Shown here piece by piece: positions 499 to 64,000 of a stretch of DNA of 64,000 nucleotides (positions within the stretch are counted from its first letter, which is position 1; each line of letters opens with the position of its first letter). The notes beneath the pieces were generated by a model that did no database searches, was not told the origin of the DNA, and worked only from the letters and a program-made list of their open reading frames with translations. Source of the DNA: Muricea muricata. Taxonomy: Eukaryota > Cnidaria > Anthozoa > Malacalcyonacea > Plexauridae. Made by a program: the position numbers and the translations under genes. The stretch is taken from contig OY979718.1 of NCBI GenBank assembly GCA_963855995.1, positions 36,719,059-36,783,058 of the forward strand, written 5' to 3'.

Positions 499-18318
<17,820 letters not shown>

Positions 18319-26586: not shown

Positions 26587-27153
26587 AGACACAAGGACGG
26601 CAATGGCTAAAACTCCACAATCCACGTAATTATGTTGGTAGTGTGCGGGTGGGATGTTGATGGTGACTGAGGACGATTGCTCAAAAAGCAGGCTTGAAAT
26701 TTGCTTTTTTGTTGACGTCCTTATTCTTCCGTGGTACATACAATCGTAGAGACTTATAGAACAGCCAACATTTGATACTAGTAGCCAATGATGGGTACCC
26801 GTGTTTAGTATTTGGGAAAATGCACCGCGATGCACAGAAAAACCGAGAACTGGACCAAGTGTTGTGTTTTCCAAGCCAAGAGCAGTCAAAAATTGCTTAT
26901 GCAAAACGGTATGAGCAGTTCCAATTATGTGGTGTGTAAGTTCCTTCCTGGTGATAATCACGTTGACATCAGCATCGCTAATTTTGAAATTACCTCGCTT
27001 TGGTGTTACTGTGTGAGCTACTTTCTCCAGTATTATTTTTTCTGACTTATCATGAGATTTAGGCGGGGAGTGGGATAATTCCTCAATTATGATATTACAG
27101 TTAGCTCGGGGAATCTTTGTCGGTGGCTCTTCAATTTGGTTCAAACTTGACAC
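26524..27153 (-). CDS. Ulp1/SENP-like cysteine protease segment (C48) of the Mutator-like remnant
   Basis: A 209-codon open frame. Catalytic-triad candidates: His in THHWLLVSN, Asp in SLYDCMYHG, Cys in YVDCGVLAIA, with a Gln (HYQHNY) just before the Cys. The order and spacing match C48 proteases that cut SUMO or related peptides. The C-terminus is cut short at the junction with the hAT remnant. Upstream the frame stays open into a proline-rich linker, but the preceding SWIM region carries frameshifts. Expression is doubtful. Confidence 0.7.
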   Translation of the reverse strand: MSSLNQIEEPPTKIPRANCNIIIEELSHSPPKSHDKSEKIILEKVAHTVTPKRGNFKISDADVNVIITRKELTHHIIGTAHTVLHKQFLTALGLENTTLGPVLGFSVHRGAFSQILNTGTHHWLLVSNVGCSISLYDCMYHGRIRTSTKKQISSLLFEQSSSVTINIPPAHYQHNYVDCGVLAIAVLVSLLFDQGPTTLTYNKTTKYFL

Positions 27154-31029: not shown

Positions 31030-33252
31030 GTTGATCTGAGCTAGGACTTTATGCGCCGCATAACGCTAAAGCTTCTTTCTGCTGTAGCGGAACTAATAAG
31101 TACAGACATGTAAAATGTCAACACTTTGTGCACTTTAGAAAGACATTCCTTAGTGGACTCTTTATGATTAAATATTTCGCAAAGCGTGGATAGCTTTGTG
31201 ACCTTCTTGATAGGCAACTCACATTCTGCGTTGTAAAGCTTTAGCATAACTGCATGGTAACTCTGCTAGCTGCTCCACCAAAGTATCAATACCGATACCT
31301 GTAGGAAGACCTTTTAGCTGTGGCCGAACTTCTTGTAAGGACAATTCTTTATTTACTGCTTTAAGTAAACATGTCTCTATTGCCTGAAGTGTCTCTAAAT
31401 CTTCGTGACGAAAACGTTTCTGTAAAGCCTCGACCAGAGAATCAACAGCTTCGTAATAAATACGCAACAACTCTTTTGCATTATCCATTTCAATTACTGA
31501 CGAAGGCGAACTAGAATGAGCGAAATAGTCGGACAGATGACGTGGAGCTGACTTATGTCTCTTTGACTTTTGCGTTTCATTCTCATCTCGTAAATCAGCC
31601 AGCTTTATTGTCTGGTCATACAAACGTTGGAACTCATCTGTTGACAGCATCTCTTGCAGACGAACTAGCATTTTGTTTATGCCATACACTGCCTGCTCTG
31701 CAGTGAAGGAAGAGGACTGCAAATTCCTAAAATTATTTTCTAACAAATTTGCAAGTTCATGCATAACCACCACTTGGAACATCGGTCGAACGGATCGAAT
31801 TTTGTCAAGCATACCACGTGATTTTGCACGACACTCAGGACTGACTGTGGGATCTTTTGATAAGATCTCCAACGCTTCCTGTAACTCTCTCGTTTTCTTA
31901 ATGAGCACTACAGCAGCTGATCCTCTCGTGGTCCATCTTGTTCAAGATAAATTCTTTAGTCTTAGAGCATCTGAGTCATCACCCATTTCTTTTTGTATGT
32001 TCTCAAAGAGAAGGAAACGTTTAGGAGAGACGCCGACTAGAACATACAAATCTTCGCAAAAATCTTGTGCTTCGGCAATCAATAGGGACAACGCAGTGGC
32101 ATCTTTAAACGCAAGTTCGTTACAATGTGCGAAGCAATGAATATGAATTATGTTATCTCCAAAATTTTCTTTCAGCAGGGCAGCGAGTCGTACCATGGAT
32201 GATGCTCCGTCAAAAGCCGTACCAACCAACTTTTGTGTATCCATATTGCATCTCAACAGTATGTCCTTTATATACTTCAACAAAGCGTCCGATGTCAAGC
32301 CTTGGTCACATGACAACATCCCGATGAAGCTTTCGAACGTCTCATAACTGTTGTTGCACGTACGAACGGAAAACGACAATTGCTCCAATTTTGAAATATC
32401 GCTTGCTTCATCGCATATAATGGAATAGAAATTGTTTGAATTAATCTCTTGGACCAATGCTCGTCTAGCATTTAACACTATGAGCCTTTCTTGCTCATTT
32501 AAGATCTCATGTGAAAAATATTGATATTCACTCATTAACAAGTGCAAGCCGGTATTATGTTTTTCCTTATCCTTATTAAACTGAATAATATTTGACTCTT
32601 CATCTCTATGACCGCGAATTGCAAGTCCCTGCCTTAAGAGAGTTTTCATGGTATCCAAATGAGCTACCAAACCAGTCCGTCTCAGGTGTTGCTGCTCTTG
32701 ATAATGATGATCAATCTGGCAAGCCACATCTGGTTGGTTTCGTCTTGATTCTTTTGAAGCATTGCGATGATTAAATCCTCGTTCGTGTTCTTCTATTCTT
32801 TCCTTGCCCTGCTTCCAGTTTTTAAAGCCATCTGCCGTGTCAGTAAAGATGAACGGCGAGGAATCATGTGGCTGTCTAAATGAAGTATATACTCCACAAA
32901 AAGCAGACTTTTTCCCGCGGTGATACCACAACCAGTTATGGTGCTGAAACCATTCCTTTTGAAAGTATCGTCCTTTGTTTTCACTTTCTTGTTTCACATT
33001 TGATGAAAAATGTAAGTCAGCGTTCCCAGCTTTAATCCAAGGATTGTCTGCTTCATCACATGATGTTATTGTAGAGGTGAAGGCTGAACTTGCACTAGCA
33101 GTAGCATTATCCTCTGTGGTGTAGTCATGCTCAGCATTATCATTTGCAACGACAGATTGTGTGGAAAAGGAGAGTTTAGTCTGACCGCTTGCCTTAGAAA
33201 CTTTCAAAAGTTCTTTTCTAACAGTACCTTGCAGGCGATCTGCTCTTAGCAT
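31030..33252 (-). pseudogene. hAT transposase (ZMYM1-like), nearly complete, one in-frame stop and one frameshift
   Basis: Starts at ATG 33252. A TTF-type finger region (YFQKEWFQHHNWLWYH, FCGVY) is followed by YSIICDEASDIS and GTAFDGASSM (two catalytic-Asp regions) and IHIHCFAHCNELAFKDA. An in-frame TGA at 31942-31944 sits in KNLS*TRWTTRG, where most relatives have an Arg or Thr. The frame then stays open to about 31219. A one-base-type frame change near 31240 leads to the C-terminal hAT dimerisation motif (SSATAERSFSVMRRIKS, catalytic Glu in AERSF), after which it is broken off. Few lesions mean a young loss. Terminal repeats were not located. Confidence 0.85.
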
Positions 33253-33905
33253 TTTATTTCCACATTTTTACAGCAAAAATTGGTTGTTTAGATCAATAAC
33301 GGCAAATACTTTCTACTTGAATGTTTAGCAGATAGTTAAATGTCAAGACAGTTTCATATATTGCCCAACTTAAATCGGCTGACTAAAATCGTTTAAAAAT
33401 TGATGCACACAGCGATTTACACTTATTTAGCCGGTCGACAGAAATCGGCCAATTAGAATCGCCGCGCCCTCGTGTGCGCGGCACCTTATTGTCTAGCGTA
33501 AATCGCAAAGTCGTGTTTTATTTACGCCAATTCAAATATACAACTTTCTTACTTTGTGTTTCTTTTCGATAGATATGAACAGCGTTATAAAACTACTTTG
33601 CCCAAGTATTCAAATATGAAATATCCTTGTAGTTGAGTTGCCGAGGGGTTGGTCTTATTGAAATTTATTCTATTCCATACAGTCATATAGTTTATACAGT
33701 GGTTTCTGCAACAAAATGTTAAATGAGAATATGCATAATATATAAATACTGACATACTGTACATTGATTTTTGACATTTCTGCAGTGTGGCTTATTCAAC
33801 GCTGCTGTTAATGTGTGGCGTTAGAATTATTGTCAATTCAATTTTAATATTTATAAATTGTAATACTCACCTTTATCAATTATTCATGGTTCTTTGTTAA
33901 TAGTT
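33253..33905. other. Intergenic, no gene seen
   Basis: AT-rich flank between the hAT transposase start and the next element. No feature recognised. Confidence 0.4.
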
Positions 33906-33914
33906 CTGTTAAAT

Positions 33915-34798
33915 GATCGTGACTAAAACACCACACGAGTACATACGAGCAACATACGAGTACATACGAGATACATACCAGTTACATACGGGTAAAACAC
34001 GAGTACATACGAGTAAAACACGAGTAGAAAACTATTATTAGTGATTGTAGATTGCATTATATGCAAAAATATCCTATTATTGGTCGGAAAATAATTAATA
34101 ACCTAAAACGCAAGAAAATCAAAACCTAAACTCATATTTTTTAAAATTAATAACACGGCGATAATCACCATAAACTAGAGCATTGCATTCTGCCTGATGA
34201 ATTTCTGTTGAAATCAGTTGTTATTAGGGTTGATTTCGAAAGAAATACGTCCGACGTAACGCGAAGATATGAATATTCATCTCCCCCCCCCCCCCCCCCA
34301 ATTAACGCTCTAGTTTCGGGTTATATCGTTATGTCACGCGCATGAATGTTTCGTTCTTTGATCCCAGTCCTAATCTCGTATTCAGATCACAAGACGGAAC
34401 ATTCGAGCATGTAATATAACGATATAACCTAGTTTCGGCCCTGGCTGTGGTTTGCAAAAGGCATAGACAAAAGACGAATAAAACCATCCACTTCCTAAGA
34501 GCCTAAGTGCAATGTACTGATTCTTTTTTTAACCTTATTCGAGCCCTACAGATTACACAACAAGTACCAAAATATATTTAAATATAAAAACCTTTATTCT
34601 GTTGCCTTTTCTAAAACTTTGAAAAAAGCGTGCCAATGTTCGTGTTTTGCCCGTATGTACTCGTATGTACCTGTGTGTTAGTGGTTTGTTGCTCGTATGT
34701 ACTCGTATGTACCCGTATGTTACTTGTATGTACTCGTGTGTACTTGTATGTTACTTGTATGTACTCGTGTGTACTCGTGTGGTGTTTTGTTCACGATC
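33915..34798. mobile_element. Non-autonomous DNA transposon, 884 bp, with 9-bp target duplication and subterminal repeat arrays
   Basis: Flanked by CTGTTAAAT at 33906-33914 and 34799-34807. Ends are GATCGTGA... and ...TCACGATC, continuing into an inverted AAAACACCACACGAGTACA block. Just inside the left end are about eight ACGAGTACAT-type units (33943-34030), mirrored on the right (34650-34780) as GTATGTACTCGT units. No transposase. The left array includes GTTACATACGGG, very close to the GTTACATATACGGG subterminal unit of the Zisupton-type element at 50985. Length and TSD would suit MULE or KDZ ancestry. Confidence 0.85.
34309..34441. repeat. Inner inverted repeat of the non-autonomous element
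   Basis: GGTTATATCGTTAT...GAATGTT pairs with AACATTCG...ATAACGATATAACC, arms of about 35 nt with a few mismatches, loop about 50 nt. It may be a second small foldback inserted in the larger element. A 16-nt poly-C tract lies just before it. Confidence 0.7.
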
Positions 34799-34807
34799 CT
34801 GTTAAAT

Positions 34808-42014: not shown

Positions 42015-42510
42015 GTTGTAACCTTGCTATATGTTTTCTCACGGTGTAACCTTATCACATGTTTTGTCATGCTGTAACCTTACTATACGTTTTGTCACGT
42101 ATTAATCTTATTGTATGTTTTATCACACCTGTAAGCTTATATGTTTTGTCATGCTGTAAGCCTATTGTATGTTTTGTCATGCTGTAACGTGACTATATGT
42201 TTTGTCATGCTGTAACCCGATTATATGTTTTGACATGCTTTAACCCTATTGTATGTTTTGTCACGCTGTAACCTTATCACATGTTTTGTCAAGCTGTAAC
42301 CTTACTACATGTTTTGTCACCTATTAATCTTATTGTAAGTTCCATCACGCCTGTAACCTTGTATGTCTTGTGATGCTGTAAACCTATTGTATGTTTTGTC
42401 ATGCTGTAACCTTACTATATGTTTTATCATGCTGTAACCCTATTATATGTTTTGTCATGCTTTAACCCTATTGTATGTTTTGTCATGCTGTAACCTCATT
42501 ATAGGTAGTG
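42015..42510. repeat. Minisatellite, about 17 units of 28-30 bp
   Basis: Unit close to TATGTTTTGTCATGCTGTAA plus CC(T/C)(T/A)(A/T)TTA. Units vary by substitutions and small indels. It lies exactly between the 3' ends of two convergent LINE remnants. Confidence 0.9.
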
Positions 42511-49051: not shown

Positions 49052-52000
49052 CTATAAAACGAAAGAGCATAAACGTAAGAATAAAATTTATCATTAAATT
49101 TTGTGCCATACGCGCACAATTATGGAACAACATGACATCGGGAGAGGGTTTCATGTAAATTTTCTACAATTAACCACCAAATCAATTGCGACCTCATCTT
49201 GGATTCCGTTGCATTGTGGTCTAGGTAGAGTGCAAACACCATTTAAAAAGTCCATGTGCAAATTGTACGCGAAACCCTTCCCCTTCCCCTTCTTTCAATG
49301 TTAGCAGCATAATTCAAGACAATAGCAGCATTGAACATAAAGAAGTGAGGGGGGGGGGGGGGAGGCCAGATTAATCGATTCAATAATTATGTTACCGATT
49401 GTACATTTCCAGCATTGGTTACGGCTTAGGATTATTTAAAAAAGTAAGAACACTACACTGGTCCAGAAAGAGCACTCAGGAAGATCGCAATGTACACTAA
49501 TTTTTTTTAGTTTTCCCGTACAAAACTTATACATTACCTTAAAATATACAAGTTTGCATGGTTGGTCCTTTCTGATTGCAAGTAGTCAAGCAATGTCCTC
49601 ACTTTGGTTGATAAACCATTGTCAAGGTCTGGTAGGGCTCCCTAGAAAAATATTATTACATTTAAGAAATATAAAACATTTTCCGCGTTGATGTAGAGTT
49701 ATATCAACAGGAGTAGAAATTGTGTGGAAAAACGACGCCTGCAAGCATCGTTCGGAATTCACCAATGCTATTACGCGTATACTAAAAATTATAGAAATAG
49801 AGTGTACATATAAAAAATCGTGCATAACATAAACTTTCAAAGATATTTCACTACCCAACCGTCAGTGTTCAGCAAGTGGTCAATTTTTTTAAGTTGAGGT
49901 GAACGTTTTACTCATGCTGGCATGCAAGTAAAAGCATTAGTATTGCTTAAAAAGAGATCTATGTGAAACATGTACTAAAGCGAAATGGCATTTGATAGAA
50001 CCATTTTGGCGGGTATTAACCGGAGATAACAGCCCTGAGCCACATCCTGGCTGAACCACGAACATTCTCACTAGTTGGCTCACTGCTGGCCTCGCTTTGA
50101 GTAAAATTTTAAACATTTGTATTTCGCCAAAGTATACCAAAAATGACGAAATGAAAAAAGTCAGGCTTGATTCAACTTGATATTCACAGACTTGGTGCAG
50201 GGTGTCGAAAAAACTTCAGCTTGTCGAAAGTTTTGACAGTCAACATGCATCAGGCATGTTGACAACTTGCAGCAGACTTGTTATCATCAAGCCGGAGCAA
50301 GCGGATGCGAACCCATCCTGATAACGGTTTGATGACAGCAAGGCTGTTTTTATCCTGTGGAATATATATTTGGGCGTTATATTATTGTTGATCTTGGACG
50401 ATTCATGCAAACGTTTTAAACAACCACCAAGCAATTAACTAATCATTTTAAGTTTCCCCAGAACATCTTGATTTTTGTGCTGAGGATATTGAGAACTTAC
50501 CATGTCTTCAGGAATTGACTGATAATTCGGAACTCCGAATAGACATTGGATATCAGCATTTGCGGTGTCCTTTCCAACCCAGATATAAAATTCCTAAGGA
50601 ACAGAAATAGTCGATTATCAGAGTCACATGAAGTTGACTGCGTGGGATGCCTTAATTCCTTCTTTACAACACAAAATTTAGCAGACCAATTGTGACCTCG
50701 ATTTCGCGAAAATATTCTAACATAATTCAACCATATGAAGATTATGCCTTCGTTCGTATAAAAGACATGATCAAAAGGTCTCATGAAAACGATCAATACA
50801 ATATCGTTGTGGAGGTACAATCTTTAACAGTATTTTGATAAAAGTAATTTTCTTTTAGTTTGTAGCCTTGACACTTCTCTCGTTTTGACACTTATCTGAT
50901 ATACTCCGAATGGTGGAAATAGTAGTGATTCAAACGCTGTATGACCAAACAGTAAACTGCAAAATGTTTTCTTGCTCATATAGACATATGATGTCGTAAC
51001 GTTACGTTACATATACGGGCATGTTACATATACGGGCATGTTACATATACGGGCTACATTGCGTAATCCAATTTACACAGCCACAAATTGCGTGTGAGTT
51101 ACATTATGTCGACGTGTTGACTAATTTATCGTGAAATTTACACATGCCTGAAATTATGTCGAACTCTGTTGTAAAGCGCATTTTTAAAATTGAGTTATAA
51201 TACATTTTCTCGAGTTCTGCGCAAACATATTTTGTTGTACTTATATCTTGATATCCTATGATACAATACGGCAATTAAGGAATTTTATGTTCTCATTTCG
51301 TCCGAGATATTATAACATTGTCAGCTAATGAAGCATTTAACCATGGCATTTATTCGGCGCGACTTTCGGTCTTATGAACCAAAATACATGCGTTTATATA
51401 TTGTTTCTGGCATAATGTTAACTTTTCCATTTCACTGATGCGGTCAAAGCTGAATGTCGTTAAACAAACTGTTGTATATCTAGTAACGCAAGCTGAGCCA
51501 GACTTGTGCGTCATGATAATATTTTTAAGTCTATGCGTGCGTGTGTGCATTTCTCGATACCAAGTGGCAGGAATGTGGGGTGGATTCTCGCAATATTCAA
51601 GAATAATCTATGACTATACGAACATCCATGACTGTATAGTCATGGATGTTCGTATAGTAATAGATTATTCGATCGAAGCTTCGTAAAACAAACCTCAGCG
51701 TCGCGCTTTCCAAGCTGAAACGCTATACATGTTAACGTTAGGGTTGGTTGTGGGGATTCTCAGGTGCTCGACCAGCTTCTGTGCTCACAATAAATCAACT
51801 GAACACAATTTACTGTCACGATTATTTTTTTAATTTGTGTTATAAAAGTACAACATCGAATGAGATAAAGATATATTACTGGGTGGGCATGTCGCATTAA
51901 AAAAATTATTCTTACACTATTATGGAAAAATCTCGAAAGTTGCAACAGAATTGTGTGCTGTTATATGCAAAATAAAAATCAAAAAACAATATAAAAATAC

Positions 52001-55000
52001 AATTTACGTCACATTGTTAGTCACGCAAAATATTTTTGTAGGAGGCGCTGTATATGCTAATAATCCTAACGTCCGCGCTTACGTAATAAAATAGACAAGC
52101 CCATGCAGGGCGCGGTAAACGAAGTGCTTTACTGCGCCCTGATAAACCAATTTCTGCGTGATCAAAGACTTATAACGTCACGCTAACGATTAGTATAAAT
52201 AAAACTGAACTTGTCCCAAAAATTAAAATCTTACTGCTATTTGGATATGCTACGTTGAAAAAGCTACAAATCTCCGAATAACATTGGATGCTCGAATAAC
52301 ATTGGATGTTAACATTGCGTGCTGGTAATGGAATATATTTGATTTGGCATTTATTTATGAAAGAATCTTTAGCTGAGTCTGCACTTTGACGATTATTTCA
52401 AGAGAAAATATATAACAATTATTAAAGGTAAGCCATACGTTTCAGTCATTGCATTGAATATAGTTTAATAAATATTTATTGCTGCAGTATAAATAATTAT
52501 TAAGTTCCATGTAGGTTTTCCCTCCTATTCCCTCGCGGGTAATCAAAAGTGGTGTACATATTTTTTTTCGAAATTGAAAAGTACAGGAATAAGCAGGGTC
52601 AAAATTCTGACTTGTCCAAGTTTTGCATAATTTATTAACATTAAAAATTCCCAGAGGTTACTTTACAGTGTGAAATTGTTTAACAACACATTTAATTGAC
52701 AAGGTTTACACATAACGAAATAGAACGTAAACTAGCTTAAATGCCATATCATCAATTTCTTCCTTCAACGTGTCCGCCTTCAAGTTCCACGCATTTTATT
52801 AGAGACCTTTAGATTGGCGTTTACGGCAAACGGCAAACCTTATGCATGTTCTTTCTTATAAAATCGAAATCATGAACCGTGAAATGTTCAAACTATACGA
52901 TTTATTCAATAAATGAAAAATACTGATCTTCGATGTATTTGTATGACCACCAAAAGGTATCACTGACGAATAATAGTTGAGGGCCTCAATCTGTTGGACT
53001 CAGGAAGATATGATGTTAAACTTTTGGTAGAGAGTAACAACTTGCAAACTGGCCTATTGCTTAAATAACTATGCTACAAATTTCCGGAGGGAATTTTTTT
53101 TGGGACACCCTGTATAATGTGGCTGTCAGGGAGACCTCCGAGGAACCCCCGAGGGAACCCCGAGGCGGTGCAGGTATTTGACTGCTTGAGCCGGTGCGGC
53201 CATTTGAGACGAACGAGTCAAAAAAACCAAACGGGCCGAAAAGTGCTAAACGGCCAGAAACGCTTTTTAGCCTGCGCTCCCTCACCATTTTTGACGTACA
53301 CGTACATTACGAGACACTGGTCTTACATATCCTAAAGGAGATATGTTTCCAGGCCGAGACATTGTCGAGGGCTGGAGGAAACAGGGGTAACTACAATCCT
53401 GGAAATTAATTCGTAGACTTAACTAATTTTAATGGTATTTCCCAATCCCCCCCCTCCTTTTACAATGTCGGAATTAAGGTCACACACCATACAAATAGAC
53501 GCTCGCTTTTCCAACCTTGTTCGCAGGAGGGGGGGGGGGTTAGAATCACAATTCAATTTTTTTGCGAAAGGCGGATTATTATGCTGAAACATATAAAAGA
53601 TAGTTTAACGTTTTGAAGTCTACGAATATTTTTTCTAGGATTGTAGATGTAGTTAATTAGGGGGTTGTTTATTCATATACTATTCGCGTTTTTCCATACG
53701 ATTTTTTTAAATCGATTGTTTTTCTCGTCGGGCAGAACGCGATATAATAGACACCCTTCTAATTATTGTTCTAGCTACGCCTGTGCGGGAGGCTGCTATT
53801 TACCTATATGAGCCTGAGGCTAATAATCGTTTTAGTACACACAAATGTGAAAAAGGTAACAAAAATTTTGGCTAAAAAGGTTGAAGTATTTGTATTGTTT
53901 TAAAAATTTCATAACTTGTGATTATTGTTTTTTACTTATTCCTTAAACACCTGGGGCCGGTTGTATAAAAACGTAATTAAAGTTAACTATGATTAGGGGA
54001 AACGTCGACCAATCAGAACCACGTACCTTGTACTTAATTACTATTTAACTACAAAACAGTGATTAAAAAAGTGATTAAGAGTTTTATACAACCGGCCCCT
54101 GGTGTTTTGAAAACTGCATCGAGCCACCTTACGTTGATGGTTGAATAACTGGAATCATTCCTTTCGTTTACTATTAAGGTGTTAATTTTTATTTCTTTTG
54201 CAGCAAATGTCGGATGACTATCAAGATTACTTTATAAATTGTAGTGAATTTACGTTGCCATGCAAGAACACATGTGTGCTGCATAAGCATTGCAAGCTTT
54301 GTGGAAAATCGTTTGACTCGCAATACAAGTGTCGAAGGCACTTTAAAGAAGCGCATCTAAATAGAGTTATTGTCGTAAATGGTCAGTCTTGTTTTCCTTG
54401 CAAATTAAATCATGGCGAAAGTGGTTGTGGTCGAGCTCATTATCATTGCCCGAAATGTGAAAAGACGATAATTAATCGAAACAGATTTTTAAAACATTAC
54501 GAAAATCATTTCAGTGAAAAAGAAATAAAATCAAGCGCCACACCACTTTTGGAAGAGAAAGAGAGTTCGGCGACGACTGAGGAAATAGAAGAGCCCAAGC
54601 CGAAAAGGCAAAAATCAGAAAGAAAAGAGTGCCCAACGTGCAAAAAAGTAATGGATGTACGAAGCCTTCCAAGGCATCAAAGAGACATCCACAAGAAAAT
54701 AATTCCTACTAATGTTGCGTTGATGAAACAAGAGGAATTTATATGGTGCGCAAAAGTTCACATGGAGGCGTTAGTTATCCACTTCATGTCCGGAAATGTG
54801 TTTGGTCTCCAAGTGAAGAAAGTGGCAACAAAAATGCCTTTTGTGAAAGCAACAGTTGCCGAGATTGCATGGAAGTTGCCTGGAGAAGTGGCATGAATGC
54901 TATGGAATGTCACCACATCAGGGAAGTTGGTGTGAAAACAATGTATAAAGAAAAAGTGCAACTACGCAGAAGTGATCTTGATGACCTTTCGTGTGAAGGA

Positions 55001-58000
55001 GAATTTAAAATGATAAAAGAAGAACGCATCAATCAATGCATATCTCTTTTGCAAGCAGCATCTGAAAACAAAGCAGATTTAATTGTCAGTTTTGAAGATG
55101 GCGAAAGATACATTCATTTTTCTGTATACGATGGCGGCGTCCACTATTATTCCAAACTAGGAAGAGTTATCGTAACATGTGACCTCAAAAATGGGCAACT
55201 CGATTGTGGATGTTGTCGCCGTAAACGTGGTTGTGTACATAAGGCTGTTTGTTTGTGGTATCTGCGCAGTGTCGACAAGTTGGAACGATTCCGTAGTTTT
55301 AGAGACGACGATAATAGCAATGATATAGGAGACGAGAGTGCTGAAACAGATGCATCGTTTGACAATAATGGACTTTTTTATCCTCCTACTGACGAACGTA
55401 TGGTTGCAAACATGTGCAAATACCTAAAAGCAAATAAAAGAATTCCAATGTCAGCCACTCGTGATAAATCTAAATCCGTTCCTCGACGTTACACTCCCGT
55501 TGAAAAGAGATGTCCGTTTTGCGATGTTCACCTGAGTAAGCCCATACGAATAACGGCAAAAGCAACGGTAGTTACGATGGATTTTGTAATAACCAACGCA
55601 GAAACATATTTTGTGAAATGTGGGTCTTGTGAGATGTGCTTCCGCTACCAAGAACACGACGAAGGCGTGCATAATTTTAATGATACCTTTTTAATAGGAT
55701 TGGACGTGTGCAACTATTTCAGAGAGAGCCTTCAATGTCACATACCAATTGGCAGCGCGACCGAAGTTTTAGAAAGGAGTTTGAAAACTAAGTTAAACAG
55801 CCGTACGATCCTTAATGCTTTTCTTCATTTTGATGCTCTAAGTTGCCACGAATACAAATTTAATTGCTCAATATGTGGACATCACCCTGCCATCATGAAC
55901 ATGGATCTAAACCGTAAAGTATCATTTCAGTGTCCAGCAGAATTGTTGCGCCTTCCAGACGAGTACGAGCAAGATTCGGAGGAAAATGATGTTGTAGACT
56001 GTGAATTGTTTTGGGAAAATGTTGAGTTCTCTATGATTGTCCGAGGGTTTCCTGGGGTTGCAGTGCAAGAGTTTTGTGTTAAACCAGATTTGTTGAACTG
56101 GGCACCGTTTATTGGCAGCGATACGAGAGAAAGCAAACGTGTATTCAATACAGAGCACAGAAAAGTTAAAGTGGAAGACGGAAAAATCGAAGACGATTGC
56201 TGCGAAGTAACTGAAGAAAGATTGCTGGAGATGCTTCACCATTCAACGCTGAAAGAGGTACGATCCTTTGCCAAAAAACTTGGGCTGACTGGAGCTGGCA
56301 GCAAGCTAGACATTATTATGAACATTAAAAATGCTGTTCAAAATAACGATGAGAAATTCAAGAAAGCTTTCAGCAAATTATGGGGTTGTTCTGGAGGATG
56401 GGCATCCGGAACTTGCCCCCATGGCGTTGTTTATGCATTGAAATTCCTTATTCGTTCAGAGAGTCCCCGTGATTATGTCGACATTTTGCTGTCGATGAAA
56501 AACCAACCAAACGTCACAATAGTTGATGTTGCAAACCTGGTCGCGGCACACGGCAATCGTAGAAAAAATGGAATGTTTTCGCCTAACAGCGGTATGTTGA
56601 TGGAACCAACACCCGAAAATGTTCAAGAAGCAAACCACGTCATTTAGCCATTTCGTTGGATTGGTTGAATGTTCAAGGTTCAGAAAATACAGCGGTTACT
56701 GGCCACCCAATTACCGGTTCAAACGACCACTTCTGTTTATTTGACCGATTTCATGAATGCAATCCCCAGAATGAGCGTGAGGTGTTGCGGAGAGTAACGC
56801 ATGTTAGACAGTTAAACGGTTTGATAAACACCCAACGTCAAGAGCAGTTATACAATGTGTTTAACAGAGATAGCCGATTCTTAAACTCTATGACTCCTGT
56901 TAATCATATTTTTTTATTCCGATCAAATATTGACTTGCTGAATGAACGTATTAATGAAAGAAACATCAGTAATATTGCCCAGTTATCATTCGCAGTAACT
57001 GAAGATCAATTTGGACGAGCCATATTTGACAAAACAAAACGTGCACCCGCAACAACACCCACGAAAGCAACAACTACTTCTACGAAGCAGCCCGATATGT
57101 CAGATACAAGCCTAGTACCTCCTGCCCAAACTTCCGAAATTGAAGAAACTCTACAAAGTGAGATAAAAAGTGCATCGCAAAGTCAAGTTATTTTGACAGA
57201 TTGCCCAAGCAGCCCAGACGATGATCCATGCGTATTTTACAGTCGACCACCAGATACGTCAAATGAACCTCGCGTAATGAATACAACCAACTTTCCAGAA
57301 TTTGAAGAATTACAGACTGAGGAAGACTTCTGGATAAAAGAACTGGGTTTGCACATCATTGACAAGACGATTTTAGAAAAAGGACATTGGTTGAATGATC
57401 GCATTATGCTGGCGGTGTTTAAGATCCTGCGTGCCCACCCTTGTACAGCTGATATTGGCGGACTACAAGACCTGATTCCCGCAGTCAAATACGGATTCCG
57501 GAAAGAAAACTGTGTACATTTTGTCCAGATTGTAAATGTCCGTGGCAATCACTGGGTAACAATATCGAACATCAAGTCCAGGAATGGTGATGTCTGCATA
57601 TACGATAGTTATATAAACCTGAATCGAAAGGGCGATAAAGTCAGCTATCCAATCAATGTTGAGCAATGTGCCTGCAAGTTGGCAAGCTCAGTTGGCTTTT
57701 TTAACATGGCTGTGGCCAACGTTCAGCAACAAAAAGGTGGCGCTGCTTGTGGTCTGTATGCAGTGTCAAACACCATTGCGCTATGTTTTGGAGAGGATCC
57801 TCTCACATTAAGATGGAATCAAGAAGTCATCGGTCCTAATCTTATGCGGTTGTTTGTTGATCGAGATTTTGCAACATTCCTGGCTTCTACGAGCAAACGG
57901 AGAGATCCACCTATTGAGAAGTATCTTTTTGAGTGGGTGTGCTGGGTGCATTGTCATTGTGCCTCGCCAGATGATGGGAAGCTAATGGGACAGTGCAAGA

Positions 58001-61000
58001 AATGCAAGAGGTGGTTCCACAGAGATTGCGAGCAGGGAAATTTCGATGATCCCGAATGGAAATGCATCAAATGCACCAAACGAGAAGAAGAGGCAAAAAG
58101 ATGGAAAGAGGCCCGACGTCAGGAAAGAGAGAAATGCTTCATAAAATTACGCGAGGTGTCCAAGAAAAACGAAGATCATCAGGATTTAGTGGCACTGTAC
58201 GATAAATTAAACGAAGTAGCATTTAACGGCGAGCTTCCTCCTGGTAATGACAACGTTGGTTTTGTAGGTATGAAGGAGTTCAACAATTGTACAGGTGAGA
58301 AGAAGTGCCATGGGGACCTTGGTATTACTTACAGTCATGGCGAATTTATGTTCATCATAGTCTTTCCAGAAACACACACTGACAAGTTAACAATTTTCAA
58401 AACGCTGATTCATGAAATGGTGCACGCAAAGATGATAAAGCAAAACGTCAGGGGAAGGTCACACGGAAAAGAATTCAAAAGTCTTGGCAAACAAGTATCA
58501 CGTGCGCTGCGATCAAGACTCCAGGAGTTTCACAAACCATACTGTGATATGGAAATTGATGAAACGGACATATTTAAGGCTAAGGTAGCGTGGTAAAGCC
58601 TAGTTTCCATTTGCTCGTAGCTGTCGTAGCCAAGTCATTGTCGACGATGTGACATAGTCTAGATCTATCTTTTCGTTTGTGGACCGTATTCAAATTAGTC
58701 ATATTAAGTGTAGATCAGCGTACATATATTTTATCACATCGGTCACTTTGATATATAGACGACACTCACGACTTAATGGAAACTAGGCATTAGACTTCAT
58801 AGCATACTGTGGATCTATTACTGAACAGTTATGGTGACATTATCTACTTTATACTAGAATTGGTTAAGAGCGGTGGACGAAATCGCCATATCTGTGGGAT
58901 ATGAGAAATTATTAAGGCCTCGACTAGTGTTGCTTCGGTAGATAACACAAACTGTGCCTTAATAATTCCTCATATCCTACTCGACCTCACTAAATGATTG
59001 TTTAATGTGCTACGAAAGGAATAGTATAATTGTTTTAAAATATAGTCCTATAGCGGGTAATTATGCACAATCATAGCATGTATTTCAAACAAAATCCATG
59101 TCAAAATGTCCAACAAATATTCGGTGTGTTCTTGTACTGTTTGGTGTTTCAAAATTTTAAGAAAATAAAATATAATCAAACGTTTATAAACAGTATTGCT
59201 TACAAAAAGATATCAGATACTATATATGTAAACTTTTCTAAAGCCTTTGTGAATAGAATTCTTTGCTTTTATACACGAATATTTCATAATAAATGATATT
59301 CACAAAAAATTTTTTTCGGTGTTATTTCTAAACCAGTTTCTATCTGTTAAAAGAATTTACTAACTTGTAAAAGATGGTTAGAGGTATTTCTGGTATACGC
59401 GGGCTCTGTGTTAATCTACGGGCTCTATGTTAATATATACTGGCTCTATGTTAATATACTCGGTCTATGTTACATATACGGGCTCCATGTTACATATACG
59501 GGCTCTATGTTACATATACTGGCTCCATGTTAATATACGGGCTCCATGTTACATATACGGGCTCTATGTTACATATACGGGCTCTATGTTACATATACGG
59601 TCTCTGTGTTAATATACGGGCTCTATGTTAATATAGGGGCTCCATGTTACATATACGGGCTGTATGTTAATATACGGGCTCCATGTTGCATATACGGGCT
59701 CTATGTTAATATACGGGCTCCATGTTACATAAACGGGCTCTATGTTACATATACGGGCTCTGTGTTAATATATGGGCTCTATGTTATATATACGGGCTCT
59801 ATGTTACATATACGGTCTCTGTGTTAATATACGGGCTCTATGTTAATATACGGGTTCCATGTTACATATACGGGCTCTATGTTAATATACGGGCTCCATG
59901 TTACATATACGGGCTCTATGTTACATATACGGGCTCTATGTTAATATACGGGCTCCATGTTACATATACGGGCTCTATGTTAATATAATCGGTCTATGTT
60001 ACATATACGGGCTCTATGTTACATATACGGGCTCTGTGTTAATATACGGGCTCTATGTTAATATACGGGCTCCATGTTACATATACGGGCTCTATGTTAA
60101 TATACTCGGTCTATGTTACATATACGGGCTCTATGTTACATATACGGGCTCTATGTTAATATACGGGCTCCATGTTACATATACGGGCTCTATGTGAATA
60201 TACTCGGTCTATGTTACATATACGGGCTCTATGTTACATATACGGTCTCTGTGTTAATATACGGGCTCTATGTTAATATAGGGGCTCCATGTTACATATA
60301 CGGGCTGTATGTTAATATACGGGCTCCATGTTGCATATACGGGCTCTACGTTAATATACGGGCTCCATGTTACATAAACGGGCTCTATGTTACATATACG
60401 GGCTCTGTGTTAATATATGGGCTCTATGTTATATATACGGGCTCTATGTTACATATACGGTCTCTGTGTTAATATACGGGCTCTATGTTAATATACGGGC
60501 TCCATGTTACATATACGGGCTCTATGTTAATATACGGGCTCCATGTTACATATACGGGCTCTATGTTACATCATATACGGGCTCTATGTTAATATACGGG
60601 CTCCATGTTACATATACGGGCTCTATGTTAATATAATCGGTCTATGTTACATATACGGGCTCTATGTTACATATACGGGCTCTGTGTTAATATACGGGCT
60701 CTATGTTAATATACGGGCTCCATGTTACATATACGGGCTCTATGTTAATATACTCGGTGTATGTTACATATACGGGCTCTATGTTACATATACGGGCTCT
60801 ATGTTAATATACGGGCTCCATGTTACATATACGGGCTCTATGTGAATATACTCGGTCTATGTTACATATACGGGCTCTATGTTACATATACGAGCTCTGT
60901 GTTAATATACGGGCTCTATGTTACATATATGCGGGGTATTTTATATATATAATGCGTGTATTACAATTTATACGTTTTAAGTTATAACATGTTAAATATT

Positions 61001-63882
61001 ATTATATATTAGACATTTTGTTATATATACATGTTCATGGATATTAAGGTTTTAAAACAAGTGTAAATATACGAATGCCGATTGCGTAATGTGTAGCAAT
61101 CTCATAGCCCGTATATGTAACATGCCCGTATTGGTAACGAGCCCGTATATGTAACGTAACGTTACCACCCCTGCTCCATATAGAGGCCTCGTAATTTTTT
61201 TGTTCCGTACCTGACCAGCATCCATAAGAAAGATGCCAACTCGAGAGAGCTTTTCTCCAGACAAGACGAGTCGCGGCGGCTGTGGCACTGAGCCAAACTT
61301 CGTCGTAATTGCACCCTTAAAAAAATGTAAGCCGTTCGTTTTTTCGGACGTGGTCTTGGTTTGAAATTTTATTCTAACTTTATCACTTCGTTGCCCTCGT
61401 ACTTCACTGATACCAAGTACTGATATGTATTAATGTTAAGCCAAAAAAAAATTGAAGGCGAAAATTGGTCATAATTTGAGGCCAGCAGCCATTTTGAATG
61501 ACCCCACCCACTCAAGGAGTGATCGACGATCGACCTTCCGTTTTACTTTAAAACGTAAACCTTTCTAAAATTATATATCTTTTAATAGAAAACCTATGCC
61601 TTTCGCCGCTCAAGTGGGGCCATCATCAGGGTTTCAGAAGCCAAATCACAGTTTTGAGTAAAAACAGTACATGATTTATACCTACATAAGTTAATGCTCA
61701 CCTCGTCAGTCATGTCATGAAGAGAGTAAAGTGCTGGATAAATTGCCAGCAATGCGACATCAAACGGCATTACTTTAAACTGCTGCATTGCGTAACACCT
61801 GCTGTCTAAGCTCGCCGTAGAACCAAGACGGAATGAACTCTACAACACAAGAACTATACTTCAGAACAATATGATACGGATATCGATACACAATCAGGAG
61901 CAACACGAGTTTGACCAAAACGTGGAAAATTCTAGCCTGGCTTATCTTCTATAATCAAGTCCAATGTCAAAATTAGCTTAGTAATCATGCGTGAGCCCAC
62001 CATTGAACTATAAGTAAACTGGAACAATAAGTCATGGGGAGGGGGGGGATTGAAGACAATTTGATTCAGTTTTTCTGCGTTTTGAGTTGAAATACTAAAC
62101 GTCACAAAATGTACCGTATACCAAATGAAAGCTATTAAAAAGTTGTATTTGGTGTAAACATTTCAAGGCTTCAGGTGAAAGACAAACCTTGAACTTTGAA
62201 GGGAAATTTGCCGTATTTTTCAAAATTGCAGTTGTTTTCGTATTTTTTAGGCATTTCTTTTTTGTCTGAAGTCTTTAATTTTTTATATTAAATGTAAGTT
62301 TTTAATAGCTTCAATTTGATATATGGTCTGGTCTTTGGCGTTAAGTGTTTGGTCTCAAAACGCAGAGAAACTAACTTGGCTTCACCCATTAACTGAACTT
62401 TTGTATTGAGTTAGCGTTCTAGTTGTATTACAGTTCACTGGAGCCCACCACTTTTAAACGGTGTCCTTTCTCCTGTCGTCACTTTTCTTGTCGTGCACAT
62501 CATGTCAATTTTAACACAATGCATGTCACGTAAAGTACACAGTCTTGTTGTTATCTGTGCTTGGGTCTGCCCACCTCGGGTCCTGTCCTCTGCTTACCTG
62601 ACTTAATCTGAACGTAATTTCGGTCGTAAAGATATCGTACCTGTTTCAGTAAGGAAAGAATGTACAGAGGCAAATGTTTCAGCGAATTGGGCGCTATCAT
62701 TTCACCACTGCGAGCTGATACGCATGTTTTATATACTCCCAGGCAATCCACAACTGCGTTCATCAATGCCTGTAATTTAAGTAAAATATTTATAACAAAC
62801 ACAATTATAAAACTATGTGGGGCAATTACACCTATTTTATAGCTTTTAATATTAAAAAACATGTATTCAGAACCTTTGGATTAAAAGTAACTCAAGGACT
62901 TTCAAAGAGCTCATTTATAAAAAGAAACAAATTCCAAAAAATAAAGTCATCTTGTAATTTAAGATATGAATAAAAACAAGACAAACAATTGGAATTACAA
63001 GATGACTTTATTTTTCGGAACTTGTTTCTATTTATGTTTTCTTAAATTGTCGGCTGACCGTGGTTTTTGAGCTGATTTATATTCAAGGACTTTATAGCTT
63101 TTTAATTTTTGTTTTCAGATTCAATAAACCGGTATCCTACCTCTCGTGCATCTCCTAGCGAAGCTGTCAGCGTTCTGTCTACAGCTGAAATAGAGAAGAA
63201 AAAGAAATTCCAACCTTATTCGGTATTCTTCGACATAACAGTACCATAAGTACGTTTTTGATTAGATAAGAAAAGCGCAAGTAAAAGTCCTAATGTAATA
63301 GCTTCAATTTGATATACCGCTTAATCTTTGGGGTTGGGTATGTTTAACTAAAAACTCAAAAAAGACAGTTCGTTCCAGTTTTCTTCTAAACTTCGATGTT
63401 GCGAACCCAGATCTCTTCTTAAAGATGACTGACTTGAATACAGCTCACAAAAGAAACGATAGATGTAGACTACAACGTATCGTCGAACATGACTTTGCTC
63501 TACACTTGCAACATCATGAAGCTACCTCCTCTTATTGCTCGTTCAAACTTTTTCCTACAATGCCTTTGCAAAGGTAGCCTTACATTATACAGAATTCGCT
63601 TAATCAAATCAGCCAGAAGACGCCATATCCAATTGTTACGACAGGTGTGAAAGCCTATACGATTTAGATGTGTGAATGCTATGAATCTTTTCGCACTTCG
63701 TATATGTAGGTCGATATGGTAGCTTGTGGTATTACATAAGGCCTAGACCATTCGGCACAGATTATACCTACCCATCTTAGACAGCATCAAGGCTATTGCA
63801 CTTGCATTAGCTCCAGCATATATGTCACTCATCTTCTTCGAGACAGGCAATGCCAAGTTGTGCACTCTGATCCGCCGTTCAC
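48940..63882 (-). CDS. SEC24: SEC24A/B-type COPII coat gene, C-terminal eight exons (5' part off the window)
   Basis: Sec24 is the cargo-binding subunit of the inner COPII coat on ER exit sites. Exons, in coding order: 63882-63772, 63184-63141, 62769-62641, 61839-61702, 61315-61211, 50593-50501, 49641-49538, 49051-48940. All have AG/GT borders and compatible phases; they total 836 nt (2 nt finishing a codon plus 278 codons with TGA). The product covers the end of the trunk/helical region (GERRIRVHNLALPV, AVDRTLTASLGDARE, ALMNAVVDCLGVY) and the gelsolin-like domain (PQPPRLVLSGEKLSR, FLMDAGQ, IWVGKD). It ends TESMMSYHEFLIHIQGQVN, which fits SEC24A/B better than C/D. No lesions were seen. The intron between 61211 and 50593 contains a 10.2 kb transposon. 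Confidence 0.92.
49538..49641 (-). CDS. SEC24: SEC24 exon (second last)
   Basis: Acceptor tttttctag, donor AAG|GTAATG, 34 codons plus 2 nt. Encodes ALPDLDNGLSTKVRTLLDYL, the helix pair after the gelsolin-like core. Confidence 0.88.
49642..50500 (-). other. SEC24 intron, no feature seen
   Basis: Phase-0 intron. Short ORFs only, no repeat recognised. Confidence 0.5.
50501..50593 (-). CDS. SEC24: SEC24 exon downstream of the transposon-bearing intron
   Basis: 31 codons, phase 0 at both ends. EFYIWVGKDTANADIQCLFG and NYQSIPEDM are the second half of the gelsolin-like domain and fit directly onto FLMDAGQ of the exon at 61211. Confidence 0.9.
50977..50984. repeat. Left target-site duplication CATATAGA
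   Basis: Exact 8-mer, repeated at the right end. The bases just outside differ on each side, so the duplication is exactly eight. Confidence 0.85.
50997..51056 (+). repeat. Left subterminal inverted repeat of the Zisupton-type element
   Basis: TAACGTTACG, then three copies of a GTTACATATACGGGC unit (17-bp spacing). It pairs with 61105-61164. The unit is the seed of the minisatellite near the other end. Confidence 0.9.
51601..51670. repeat. Long near-perfect hairpin
   Basis: 32-nt arms with a single mismatch and a 6-nt loop (tgtata). Arm begins GAATAATCTATGACTATACG. Candidate small-RNA precursor, or a structural element of the transposon. Confidence 0.85.
51671..53944. other. Left interior of the Zisupton-type element, no ORF assigned
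   Basis: No domain-bearing ORF. A compact hairpin (AGGGCGC...GCGCCCT) lies at 52107-52140. A distinctly GC-rich block at about 53110-53290 follows a GGGACACCCTGTATAAT word typical of mariner-type ends. Promoter or first non-coding exon of the element may lie here. Confidence 0.4.
53945..54107. mobile_element. MITE just upstream of the transposon's first ORF
   Basis: Arms AAACACC(T/A)GGGGCCGG and TTGTATAAAA, one mismatch in 26 nt, element about 163 bp. It ends about 100 bp before the first ATG, so it lies in the promoter or an intron of the transposon gene. Confidence 0.85.
54207..54896 (+). CDS. Zisupton-type ORF 1: three C2H2 zinc fingers
   Basis: ATG follows a good splice acceptor (ttcttttgcag), so an upstream non-coding or short coding exon is likely. 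Fingers: CKLCGKSF...H..H (about 54292-54357), CPKCEKT...H...H (54447-54510) and CPTCKKVMDVRSLPRHQRDIH (54630-54692), with an acidic/basic linker (EEPKPKRQKSERK) before the third. After about 54711 the family-like sequence continues in the next ORF's frame; the tail of this frame is probably not meaningful. Confidence 0.8.
   Translation: MSDDYQDYFINCSEFTLPCKNTCVLHKHCKLCGKSFDSQYKCRRHFKEAHLNRVIVVNGQSCFPCKLNHGESGCGRAHYHCPKCEKTIINRNRFLKHYENHFSEKEIKSSATPLLEEKESSATTEEIEEPKPKRQKSERKECPTCKKVMDVRSLPRHQRDIHKKIIPTNVALMKQEEFIWCAKVHMEALVIHFMSGNVFGLQVKKVATKMPFVKATVAEIAWKLPGEVA
54713..56647 (+). CDS. Zisupton-type ORF 2: cysteine clusters, SWIM-like motif, SAP domain, start of KDZ core
   Basis: Open from 54713 (VDETRGIYMVRKSSHGG), in the -1 frame relative to ORF 1. 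In order: a Cys-rich CESNSCRDCM region; a SWIM-like LDCGCC...CVHKAVCLWYL (about 55197-55262); a cysteine cluster RCPFCD...CGSCEMC and CSICGHHP (about 55510-55880) of the type found with KDZ transposases; a SAP-like helix-turn-helix (LKEVRSFAKKLGLTGAGSKL, about 56250-56310); then CPHGVVYALKFL, SPRDYVDIL and VDVANLVAAHGNRR, likely the start of the RNase H-like transposase core. It ends at TAG 56645 in a conserved region, so the protein probably continues in ORF 3. From memory the arrangement also resembles the C-terminal half of vertebrate HMGXB3. Confidence 0.78.
   Translation, partial: CCVDETRGIYMVRKSSHGGVSYPLHVRKCVWSPSEESGNKNAFCESNSCRDCMEVAWRSGMNAMECHHIREVGVKTMYKEKVQLRRSDLDDLSCEGEFKMIKEERINQCISLLQAASENKADLIVSFEDGERYIHFSVYDGGVHYYSKLGRVIVTCDLKNGQLDCGCCRRKRGCVHKAVCLWYLRSVDKLERFRSFRDDDNSNDIGDESAETDASFDNNGLFYPPTDERMVANMCKYLKANKRIPMSATRDKSKSVPRRYTPVEKRCPFCDVHLSKPIRITAKATVVTMDFVITNAETYFVKCGSCEMCFRYQEHDEGVHNFNDTFLIGLDVCNYFRESLQCHIPIGSATEVLERSLKTKLNSRTILNAFLHFDALSCHEYKFNCSICGHHPAIMNMDLNRKVSFQCPAELLRLPDEYEQDSEENDVVDCELFWENVEFSMIVRGFPGVAVQEFCVKPDLLNWAPFIGSDTRESKRVFNTEHRKVKVEDGKIEDDCCEVTEERLLEMLHHSTLKEVRSFAKKLGLTGAGSKLDIIMNIKNAVQNNDEKFKKAFSKLWGCSGGWASGTCPHGVVYALKFLIRSESPRDYVDILLSMKNQPNVTIVDVANLVAAHGNRRKNGMFSPNSGMLMEPTPENVQEANHVI
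56650..58596 (+). CDS. Zisupton-type ORF 3: rest of KDZ core, Ulp1 SUMO protease, PHD finger, SprT-like metalloprotease
   Basis: Again shifted -1 from the preceding ORF and without its own ATG near the start. It opens with SNDHFCLFDRFHE and INTQRQEQLYNVFNRD, the KDZ-like core continuation. Ulp1/C48 protease (about 57330-57900): His in GNHWVTIS (57550), Asp in CIYDSY (57604), Gln in VQQQKGG and Cys in AACGLYA (57748). PHD finger (about 57945-58075): CHC...CKKCKRWFH..C...WKCIKC. SprT-like zinc metalloprotease (about 58180-58560): FNGELPP, HGDLGITY and the zinc-binding HEMVH (58411-58425). All catalytic residues I can check are present. Confidence 0.85.
   Translation: MSLDWLNVQGSENTAVTGHPITGSNDHFCLFDRFHECNPQNEREVLRRVTHVRQLNGLINTQRQEQLYNVFNRDSRFLNSMTPVNHIFLFRSNIDLLNERINERNISNIAQLSFAVTEDQFGRAIFDKTKRAPATTPTKATTTSTKQPDMSDTSLVPPAQTSEIEETLQSEIKSASQSQVILTDCPSSPDDDPCVFYSRPPDTSNEPRVMNTTNFPEFEELQTEEDFWIKELGLHIIDKTILEKGHWLNDRIMLAVFKILRAHPCTADIGGLQDLIPAVKYGFRKENCVHFVQIVNVRGNHWVTISNIKSRNGDVCIYDSYINLNRKGDKVSYPINVEQCACKLASSVGFFNMAVANVQQQKGGAACGLYAVSNTIALCFGEDPLTLRWNQEVIGPNLMRLFVDRDFATFLASTSKRRDPPIEKYLFEWVCWVHCHCASPDDGKLMGQCKKCKRWFHRDCEQGNFDDPEWKCIKCTKREEEAKRWKEARRQEREKCFIKLREVSKKNEDHQDLVALYDKLNEVAFNGELPPGNDNVGFVGMKEFNNCTGEKKCHGDLGITYSHGEFMFIIVFPETHTDKLTIFKTLIHEMVHAKMIKQNVRGRSHGKEFKSLGKQVSRALRSRLQEFHKPYCDMEIDETDIFKAKVAW
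58598..58788. mobile_element. MITE-like inverted repeat directly after the ORF 3 stop
   Basis: GCCTAGTTTCCATT at 58598 and its complement ending at 58788; 191 bp in all. It begins one base after the TAA. Interior arms are only loosely complementary. Confidence 0.7.
58897..58980. repeat. Hairpin downstream of the transposon ORFs
   Basis: GGATATGAG(A)AATTATTAAGGC pairs with GCCTTAATAATT(C)CTCATATCC around a 36-nt loop. Confidence 0.75.
59395..60930 (+). repeat. Minisatellite of 19/20-bp units with a 645-bp higher-order repeat
   Basis: Alternating units GGGCTCTATGTTAATATAC and GGGCTCTATGTTACATATAC, about 78 copies. Rare variants recur exactly 645 bp apart (for example GGGCTGTATG at about 59658 and 60303, and CCATGTTGCAT), with one 3-bp insertion in the second block shifting later markers to 648. 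The unit equals the GTTACATATACGGGC word of the left subterminal repeat, in the same orientation. ORFs of LYVNIRAPCYIYG type are artefacts. Confidence 0.95.
61105..61164 (-). repeat. Right subterminal inverted repeat of the Zisupton-type element
   Basis: Reverse complement of 50997-51056 with four substitutions, all in the second 17-bp unit. Twelve bases separate it from the right target duplication, the same as on the left. Confidence 0.9.
61177..61184. repeat. Right target-site duplication CATATAGA
   Basis: Exact match to the left copy. It lies 26 bp inside the intron, counting from the SEC24 splice donor. Confidence 0.85.
61211..61315 (-). CDS. SEC24: SEC24 exon upstream of the transposon-bearing intron
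   Basis: 35 codons, phase 0, acceptor ttttttaag, donor CAG|GTACGG. GAITTKFGSVPQPPRLVLSG and EKLSRVGIFLMDAGQ open the gelsolin-like domain. Confidence 0.92.
61560..61645 (-). mobile_element. Possible Penelope-like 3' end fragment in a SEC24 intron
   Basis: Minus strand reads ACCCTGATGATGGCC, a C/G-rich spacer, GGCGAAAGGC and then an AT-rich tail. The CTGATGA...CGAAA layout is what Penelope 3' ends show, here with stem II broken. No coding sequence accompanies it. Confidence 0.35.
61702..61839 (-). CDS. SEC24: SEC24 exon
   Basis: 46 codons, acceptor ttgtag, donor GAG|GTGAGC. SSFRLGSTASLDSRCYAMQQ and IYPALYSLHDMTDE match the helical region just before the gelsolin-like domain. Confidence 0.9.
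61840..62640 (-). other. SEC24 intron, no gene seen
   Basis: Includes a short G-run at about 62039. No element recognised. Confidence 0.5.
62641..62769 (-). CDS. SEC24: SEC24 exon
   Basis: 43 codons, acceptor aaattacag, donor CAG|GTACGA. ALMNAVVDCLGVYKTC and PNSLKHLPLYILSLLKQ are hallmark helices of the Sec24 helical domain. Confidence 0.92.
62924..63028. repeat. Foldback repeat in a SEC24 intron
   Basis: Arms of about 37 nt (AATAAAGTCATCTTGTAATT and complement) around a 30-nt loop, few mismatches. Confidence 0.8.
63141..63184 (-). CDS. SEC24: SEC24 micro-exon
   Basis: 44 nt, acceptor ctatttcag, donor GAG|GTAGGA. Completes an Ala codon and encodes AVDRTLTASLGDARE, directly continuous with both neighbours. 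Confidence 0.9.
63185..63771 (-). other. SEC24 intron, no feature seen
   Basis: Ordinary AT-rich intron. Confidence 0.5.
63772..63882 (-). CDS. SEC24: SEC24 first exon visible in the window
   Basis: Acceptor attgttacag, donor ATGG|GTAGGT. GERRIRVHNLALPVSKKMSD is the conserved Sec24 GERRIRVH box near the end of the beta-sandwich/trunk. The preceding exon is not convincingly found in the last 118 bases and probably lies beyond the window. Confidence 0.9.
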
Positions 63883-64000
63883 CTGTAACAATCCATAGCA
63901 TTCCATAGGTTTATCATTGTTTTTCAAATTTCATACGCTATACAACTTACGTGGTGTTTCCACAAATCTAAAATTAGTACCATAGGTATGCAGCCAAACC

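Follow-up and report, generated by a model that had tools for sequence, protein, structure and literature searches.

Structure of the element and its insertion site

We analyzed a 64,000-nucleotide (nt) stretch of Muricea muricata DNA (contig OY979718.1, positions 36,719,059 to 36,783,058), referred to in the following as the window. An intron of the host gene SEC24 in this window holds a transposon of 10,192 base pairs (bp), spanning 50985–61176 and bounded on both sides by the 8-bp duplication CATATAGA (Table 1). Minus-strand Sec23/Sec24 domains lie to its right and an exon of the gelsolin part to its left. Most of these flanking matches are weak when taken one by one; their common strand and consistent order support the placement within a SEC24 intron given in the initial annotation of this DNA.

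That annotation had also described an exact 8-bp target duplication around a 10,192-bp segment and equal 12-nt spacers before a 60-bp inverted repeat. Both descriptions were reproduced: the duplication is present on both sides, and the arms of the inverted repeat, identical at 56 of 60 positions, each begin 12 nt inside the boundary. A repeat search of the window extended the inverted repeat to 64 nt at 92%. The outer 12 nt of the left and right ends agree at 5 of 12 positions. The 5′ part of the element also has a 33-nt inverted repeat whose loop measures 4 nt (51601–51670).

The sequence CATATAGA is absent from the rest of the window. Its two occurrences compare with 2.38 expected on both strands, which is chance level taken alone. 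For random points, the frequency of 8-bp matches at equal offsets (0–30 nt) was ≈0.0015, so the pattern of flanking 8-mers by itself is suggestive, not conclusive. A chance 8-mer was ruled out by this frequency together with the end points shared between copies and the copy-specific duplications described below.

Other copies in the genome

The genome that was searched comprises 453 Mb in 74 contigs. The left end of the element had 18 other matches with expectation values (E) of 1.6e-66 or better, of which eight began precisely at the element's first base, next to the 8-mer, six reached 1–7 bases further out and four started further in. For the right end, 13 further places matched from the first query bases to within 2 bases of the boundary or beyond it, one place (on C4) ended 20 bases before the boundary, and there were additional weaker or shorter matches. 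When the ends were displayed, 18 of 19 other left ends began with CATAT and one with TATAT; read inwards, 14 of 15 other right ends began with GAGCAGGGG and one with GTGCAGGGG. The sequence outside the element boundaries differed between copies.

Twelve other copies could be paired at both ends, with lengths of 4.9–16.8 kb; 7 left and 3 right ends remained unpaired and were left out of the duplication count. Nine of the twelve were flanked by perfect 8/8 duplications, each different (ACTGTGTA, CAATAGCA, GCGGAAGA, CACTCGTC, GACTCAAT, AAATCAGA, AAATATAA, CTTTTTCC and AAAATATT), giving 10 of 13 when the window copy is counted, and the genome thus contains the further copies with their own duplications that had been anticipated. 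In the three copies lacking a duplication, 3, 3 and 1 of the 8 bases matched. These observations show precise insertion with an 8-bp duplication and conserved ends.

The copies resemble each other closely. The copy at C3:48320707-48330879 is collinear with the window copy throughout at 97.0% identity, and that at C1:120817890-120827939 is 97.9% identical where aligned. Within the final 2,010 bp of coding sequence, identity to the window copy was 98.5–99.5% for seven copies and 96.0–96.5% for three (one of them compared over 1,087 bp only); the C12 copy does not have this region. Too few changes separate the copies for the ratio of nonsynonymous to synonymous substitutions (dN/dS) to be used. 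A search with the last part of the protein found at least 14 other closely related loci and at least 43 rows at 26–39% identity, the latter matching chiefly in the Ulp1 part.

Unoccupied sites and target preference

The joined flanks of the copy at C1:67938085-67951370 yielded 40 matches, 38 of which span the junction; the other two are the occupied site. Four of the junction-spanning sites were read and were gapless over 133–134 bases at 97.7–97.8% identity, with a single CTTTTTCC. The 38 matches elsewhere in the genome indicate that this copy inserted into a dispersed repeat. For the C12 copy, a query with the left flank gave matches elsewhere that ended at least 47 bases before the junction. 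A tRNA gene was considered as the target at this copy, and none was found in the six loci scanned.

Target preference was counted on 36 element sides, 20 left and 16 right, including the window copy. C occupied position −2 on 25 of the 36 sides, against a background of 17.6% (binomial 1.1e-11, uncorrected for the positions tested), and G or C was present on 30 sides at −3 and on 30 at −2. C at −2 was combined with G at +2 in 7 of 10 verified insertions. Within the duplication, A was favored at position 2 and T at position 7, and the middle was weakly AT-rich. These inner positions were counted from both ends of paired copies, so that their symmetry arises partly by construction, a defect from which the flanking positions are free. 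The target is palindromic, roughly GC-N-[8 bp]-N-GC, a preference that is new here.

Terminal motifs and internal organization

The left repeat contains a 15-nt core, GTTACATATACGGGC, that recurs in a large subterminal array in the right part of the element. Allowing up to 2 mismatches, the window copy has three direct cores at the left end, three inverted cores at the right end and 41 direct cores in the array, and the rest of the window has none. Among the 11 fetched copies, 2–4 cores were found at the left end (one copy's left end was left out) and three at each right end, with 21–58 direct cores in the last 3 kb. The presence of 21–58 direct copies of a terminal motif in the right part of all 11 copies scored is a new observation.

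Seven of the 11 fetched copies have an extra 5′ segment of ≈1.85–3.4 kb (≥1.7 kb in one copy whose sequence was fetched incompletely) that is absent from the window copy and that contained no frame longer than 114 amino acids (aa). The segment is also missing from the C1:120.8 and C3:48.3 copies, so the shorter form appears to have moved too. These two copies and the C9 copy share with the window copy a nested palindromic insertion (Table 1). Because this insertion is common to several copies, it is older than at least some of the transposon insertions.

The predicted protein

Three overlapping frames in the window (54186–54896, 54713–56647 and 56587–58596) belong to one protein. The copy at C9:8175156-8187564 carries it in a single frame at positions 5079–9470 of that copy, 1,464 codons with one in-frame stop; this copy and the homologues show that the frames together specify one large predicted multidomain protein. 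An unbroken full frame was present in none of the 11 copies read, one of which is incomplete. The window copy had been called near-intact, and structurally it is complete, but its frame contains two frameshifts and its 5′ part the palindromic insertion. With its frame broken twice, this copy probably cannot encode the complete protein; its ends still match those of other copies.

The coding content first noted for the element, zinc fingers plus a SUMO protease, was borne out by a weak Pfam match to C2H2 fingers and by matches above cut-off to CxC4 (PF18717) and Ulp1 (PF02902). The roles of the candidate His, Asp and Cys of the Ulp1 domain are those that we presume for such a protease. New relative to the initial annotation are the PHD finger, the SprT domain, the DDE-like core and the way in which the array relates to the ends. 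The order Ulp1, PHD, SprT was repeated in homologues P0021, P0022 and P0034, with some matches under the curated cut-offs, and the HExxH motif and a downstream His were retained in P0013, P0021, P0022 and P0034. The best-scoring homologues with an organism name came from the octocoral Paramuricea clavata. The source of P0022 is named as a Sedimenticola metagenome-assembled genome (MAG), a bacterium; host DNA may have been assigned to the bin of a symbiont in this case.

AlphaFold modeling of P0001 with 21 sequences gave a predicted local distance difference test (pLDDT) score of 50, and that of P0005 with 31 sequences gave a usable model. Foldseek searches against PDB and BFVD found nothing significant. 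In the VIA second look at the fold, the ISCth4 transposase (6xgx, 6xg8) came first; it ranked third in Foldseek with an E of 4.0. ISCth4 is of bacterial origin and shows 7–8% identity, and we know of no zinc fingers or proteases in it. The model and the conservation of the candidate catalytic residues (Table 1) support the prediction of a DDE-type core with an RNase H-like fold, into which a SAP-like domain is inserted.

The predicted fusion of a transposase-like core to Ulp1, PHD and SprT domains is new here and is shared with homologues at 33–35% identity. Titles and the opening parts of abstracts, a coverage that leaves out most subscription papers and is no proof of absence, contained no description of a transposase–Ulp1–PHD–SprT fusion. 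SPRTN and other SprT-like proteases carry a SprT-like domain of this kind, in which HExxH is followed by a His further downstream; in the window family, this domain is fused to a transposase-like protein.

Table 1. Features of the transposon and of the flanking SEC24 gene in the window.
Feature	Position	Strand	Remarks
SEC24 exon, gelsolin part, left of element	50438–50593	−	Weak: Sec24B E 0.025 (best solved-structure match), gelsolin repeat E 0.043
Target site duplication CATATAGA, left	50977–50984	+	Copy-specific 8-mers flank other copies
Left terminal 12 nt CATATGATGTCG	50985–50996	+	Kept at left ends of other copies; no inverted counterpart at right
Left subterminal inverted repeat	50997–51056	+	56/60 to right arm; three 17-nt direct units at 51006–51054
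Nested palindromic insertion, like a miniature inverted-repeat transposable element	53945–54107	.	Present in 3, absent in 4 of 7 other fetched copies covering the place
Protein part 1: N-terminus, C2H2-type fingers	54207–54712	+	Approximate end at frameshift; P0004 aligned
Protein part 2: SWIM-like motif, CxC4, DDE-like core with two Asp, SAP-like insertion	54713–56644	+	
Presumed SWIM-like motif CGCCRRKRGCVHK	55205–55243	+	No model match
CxC4 cysteine cluster PF18717	55469–55801	+	E 1.1e-9; 38.7 bits, cut-off 26.9
Candidate catalytic Asp 1	55904–55906	+	D in 14/14 transposon-like rows covering the column; strand position in P0005 model
Candidate catalytic Asp 2	56525–56527	+	D in 15/15 transposon-like rows covering the column; P0005 model
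Protein part 3: end of DDE-like core, Ulp1, PHD, SprT	56645–58596	+	Open from 56587; approximate start after second frameshift
Candidate catalytic Glu	56842–56844	+	E in 13/14 transposon-like rows covering the column (exception P0012); P0005 model
Ulp1/C48 protease PF02902	57529–57774	+	E 8.5e-5, above cut-off; candidate His 57550, Asp 57604, Cys 57748
PHD finger PF00628	57952–58074	+	E 5.7e-4, under Pfam cut-off
SprT-like metalloprotease PF10263	58195–58509	+	E 1.1e-7; HEMVH from 58411
Subterminal array, 19/20/39-nt units with 15-nt core GTTACATATACGGGC	59400–60929	+	Left-end orientation; 41 cores
Right subterminal inverted repeat	61105–61164	−	Three inverted units at 61106–61156
Right terminal 12 nt GAGCAGGGGTGG (read inwards)	61165–61176	−	Conserved among the other right ends
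Target site duplication CATATAGA, right	61177–61184	+	Copy-specific 8-mers flank other copies
Weak Sec23/Sec24 domain match, right of element	61597–61839	−	E 0.067
SEC24 exon, Sec23/Sec24 helical, right of element	62554–62880	−	E 8.5e-8
Sec23_BS domain, right of element	63746–63910	−	E 0.01

Other features of the window and genome

A second, shorter element lies at 33906–34807 of the window, with 884 bp between 9-bp direct repeats CTGTTAAAT and the ends GATCGTGA...TCACGATC; its subterminal tandem units recall the arrangement of the main element. A 245-aa frame on the minus strand (26524–27261) resembles an Ulp1-type protease on inspection by eye, and Pfam gave nothing for it at E 0.1. The window also contains an array of the 28-nt unit TGTAACCTTATTATATGTTTTGTCACGC at 42017–42503, with further periods of 56, 138 and 222. 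A 232-aa frame at 8260–8958 has a GIY-YIG domain (E 3.6e-6) and is presumably Penelope-like, and a minus-strand frame at 31945–33267 has a DUF4371 domain (E 1.1e-8), which we take to be that of a hAT-like transposase relative.

Elsewhere in the genome, 66 matches to the KDZ transposase profile PF18758 (e.g., L069-L074) indicate that canonical KDZ elements are present too, unlike the window element. Five of the matches have identical scores and open frame lengths (C1:83220609, C2:64834765, C3:14218007, C3:49822122 and C5:4836726), which suggests that they represent another recently amplified family.

Classification and alternative explanations

The best explanation of these results, and one that we consider very probably correct as a whole, is that the element is a DNA transposon of the cut-and-paste type that belongs to the CxC4 (HMGXB3-like) group, has amplified recently and is organized like Zisupton. 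The label originally given to it, Zisupton/KDZ, was supported in part: the element has a KDZ-associated cysteine cluster of the CxC family (PF18717), an 8-bp duplication, subterminal repeats and an Ulp1 domain, but PF18758 was not found and the cluster was named as CxC4. PF18758 had no match in 10 family members (limit E 10, with most matches above 0.1 discarded by the program) and none at E 1 in the window frames, and none of the 66 matches in the genome was listed within the window element. Pfam scans of the window frames and of the scanned homologues named CxC4 and no CxC7, from a library that may lack a CxC7 model. Because of the missing PF18758 match and the CxC4 cluster, we filed the element as Zisupton-like, CxC4/HMGXB3-type, and not as Zisupton proper.

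Bohne and colleagues reportedly described platyfish Zisupton in 2012 as having 99-bp subterminal inverted repeats, a size near 11 kb and a C-terminal Ulp1 domain. It seems somewhat unlikely to us that the window element is a diverged member of this lineage, which combines CxC7 with a KDZ transposase. The two are alike in their 8-bp duplications, subterminal inverted repeats, length (≈10 kb for the window element) and Ulp1 domain, which here stands in one protein with zinc fingers, and CxC4 is itself named for its association with KDZ. The window element differs in having CxC4 and no PF18758 match, in the PHD and SprT domains added after Ulp1, and in its large right-hand motif array. A profile comparison (hhalign) against a single canonical KDZ exon from this genome returned a probability of 0.7%, in what is a weak single-sequence test. 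The CxC7 cluster of platyfish Zisupton (UniProt G3KL21), the founding element, is given in PMC12062965. A further difference is that the coding part of the C9 copy is intronless, whereas nematode Zisupton has 18–31 exons according to PMC9297572. Among the fungal KDZ elements (Kyakuja, Dileera and Zisupton), the 8-bp duplication is reported for Zisupton and a Dileera element in PMC12730594, which gives 7-bp duplications and no terminal inverted repeats for Kyakuja. The fungal elements differ from the window element in the TET/JBP genes that the same source describes, none of which was seen in the window element, and the latter has no KDZ profile match.

We think it improbable that the proteases and the PHD finger form a cargo gene of their own, derived from the host and riding in the transposon family, and are no part of the transposase. 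P0002 and P0005, which span the transposase without the protease part, would fit such a gene, but they may reflect gene-model or contig ends, and both parts occur together in P0034 (1,658 aa, predicted) and in the frame of the C9 copy, where the one stop lies upstream. In P0021 (35% identity) and P0022 (33%), too, the end of the core is followed by Ulp1, PHD and SprT, as in the window element. Relatives of the core itself include a fish "HMG domain-containing" protein (P0036), with 32% identity and the D, D and E residues kept, and vertebrate HMGXB3 (P0044), which shares CxC4 and a homologous core but has an HMG box and no protease match, and in which the first Asp and the Glu are missing in a low-identity alignment. 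This weak homology and the CxC4 of HMGXB3 would be expected if the locus were an HMGXB3-like host gene or segmental duplication copied with flanking repeats, and no transposon, an idea that retains almost no credibility, being ruled out by the copy-specific 8-bp duplications in 9 of 12 copies, with the same end points between different flanks on several contigs and unoccupied sites for one copy.

Proposed mechanism and significance

For the CxC4-type transposon, we propose that the 15-nt motifs repeated at both ends and in the right-hand array would serve as binding sites for the zinc fingers or CxC4. The DDE core would cut both ends and join them, with an 8-bp stagger, to a palindromic target of the form GC-N-N8-N-GC. 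The PHD finger may read chromatin, Ulp1 could take SUMO off the transposase or host proteins on the DNA, and SprT might cleave such proteins, freeing the joint for repair.

A broader proposal, rather unlikely to hold in its entirety and put forward tentatively, is that CxC4 elements form a DNA transposon lineage of their own that was the mobile source of vertebrate HMGXB3. Their single protein would combine a DDE transposase for palindromic GC-N-N8-N-GC targets with a post-integration clean-up kit, in which Ulp1 strips SUMO and the SprT-type protease removes the transposase or blocking proteins, and the right-end array would bind or titrate that protein.

For a group known here chiefly by its CxC4 domain and its HMGXB3 relatives, the present results provide defined ends, a rule for the target and an order of domains. 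The palindromic target preference offers a concrete model for the integration complex, and the predicted fusion of a transposase-like core with a SUMO protease and a SprT-like domain makes a testable idea of the transposon-borne clearing of protein–DNA complexes after integration.
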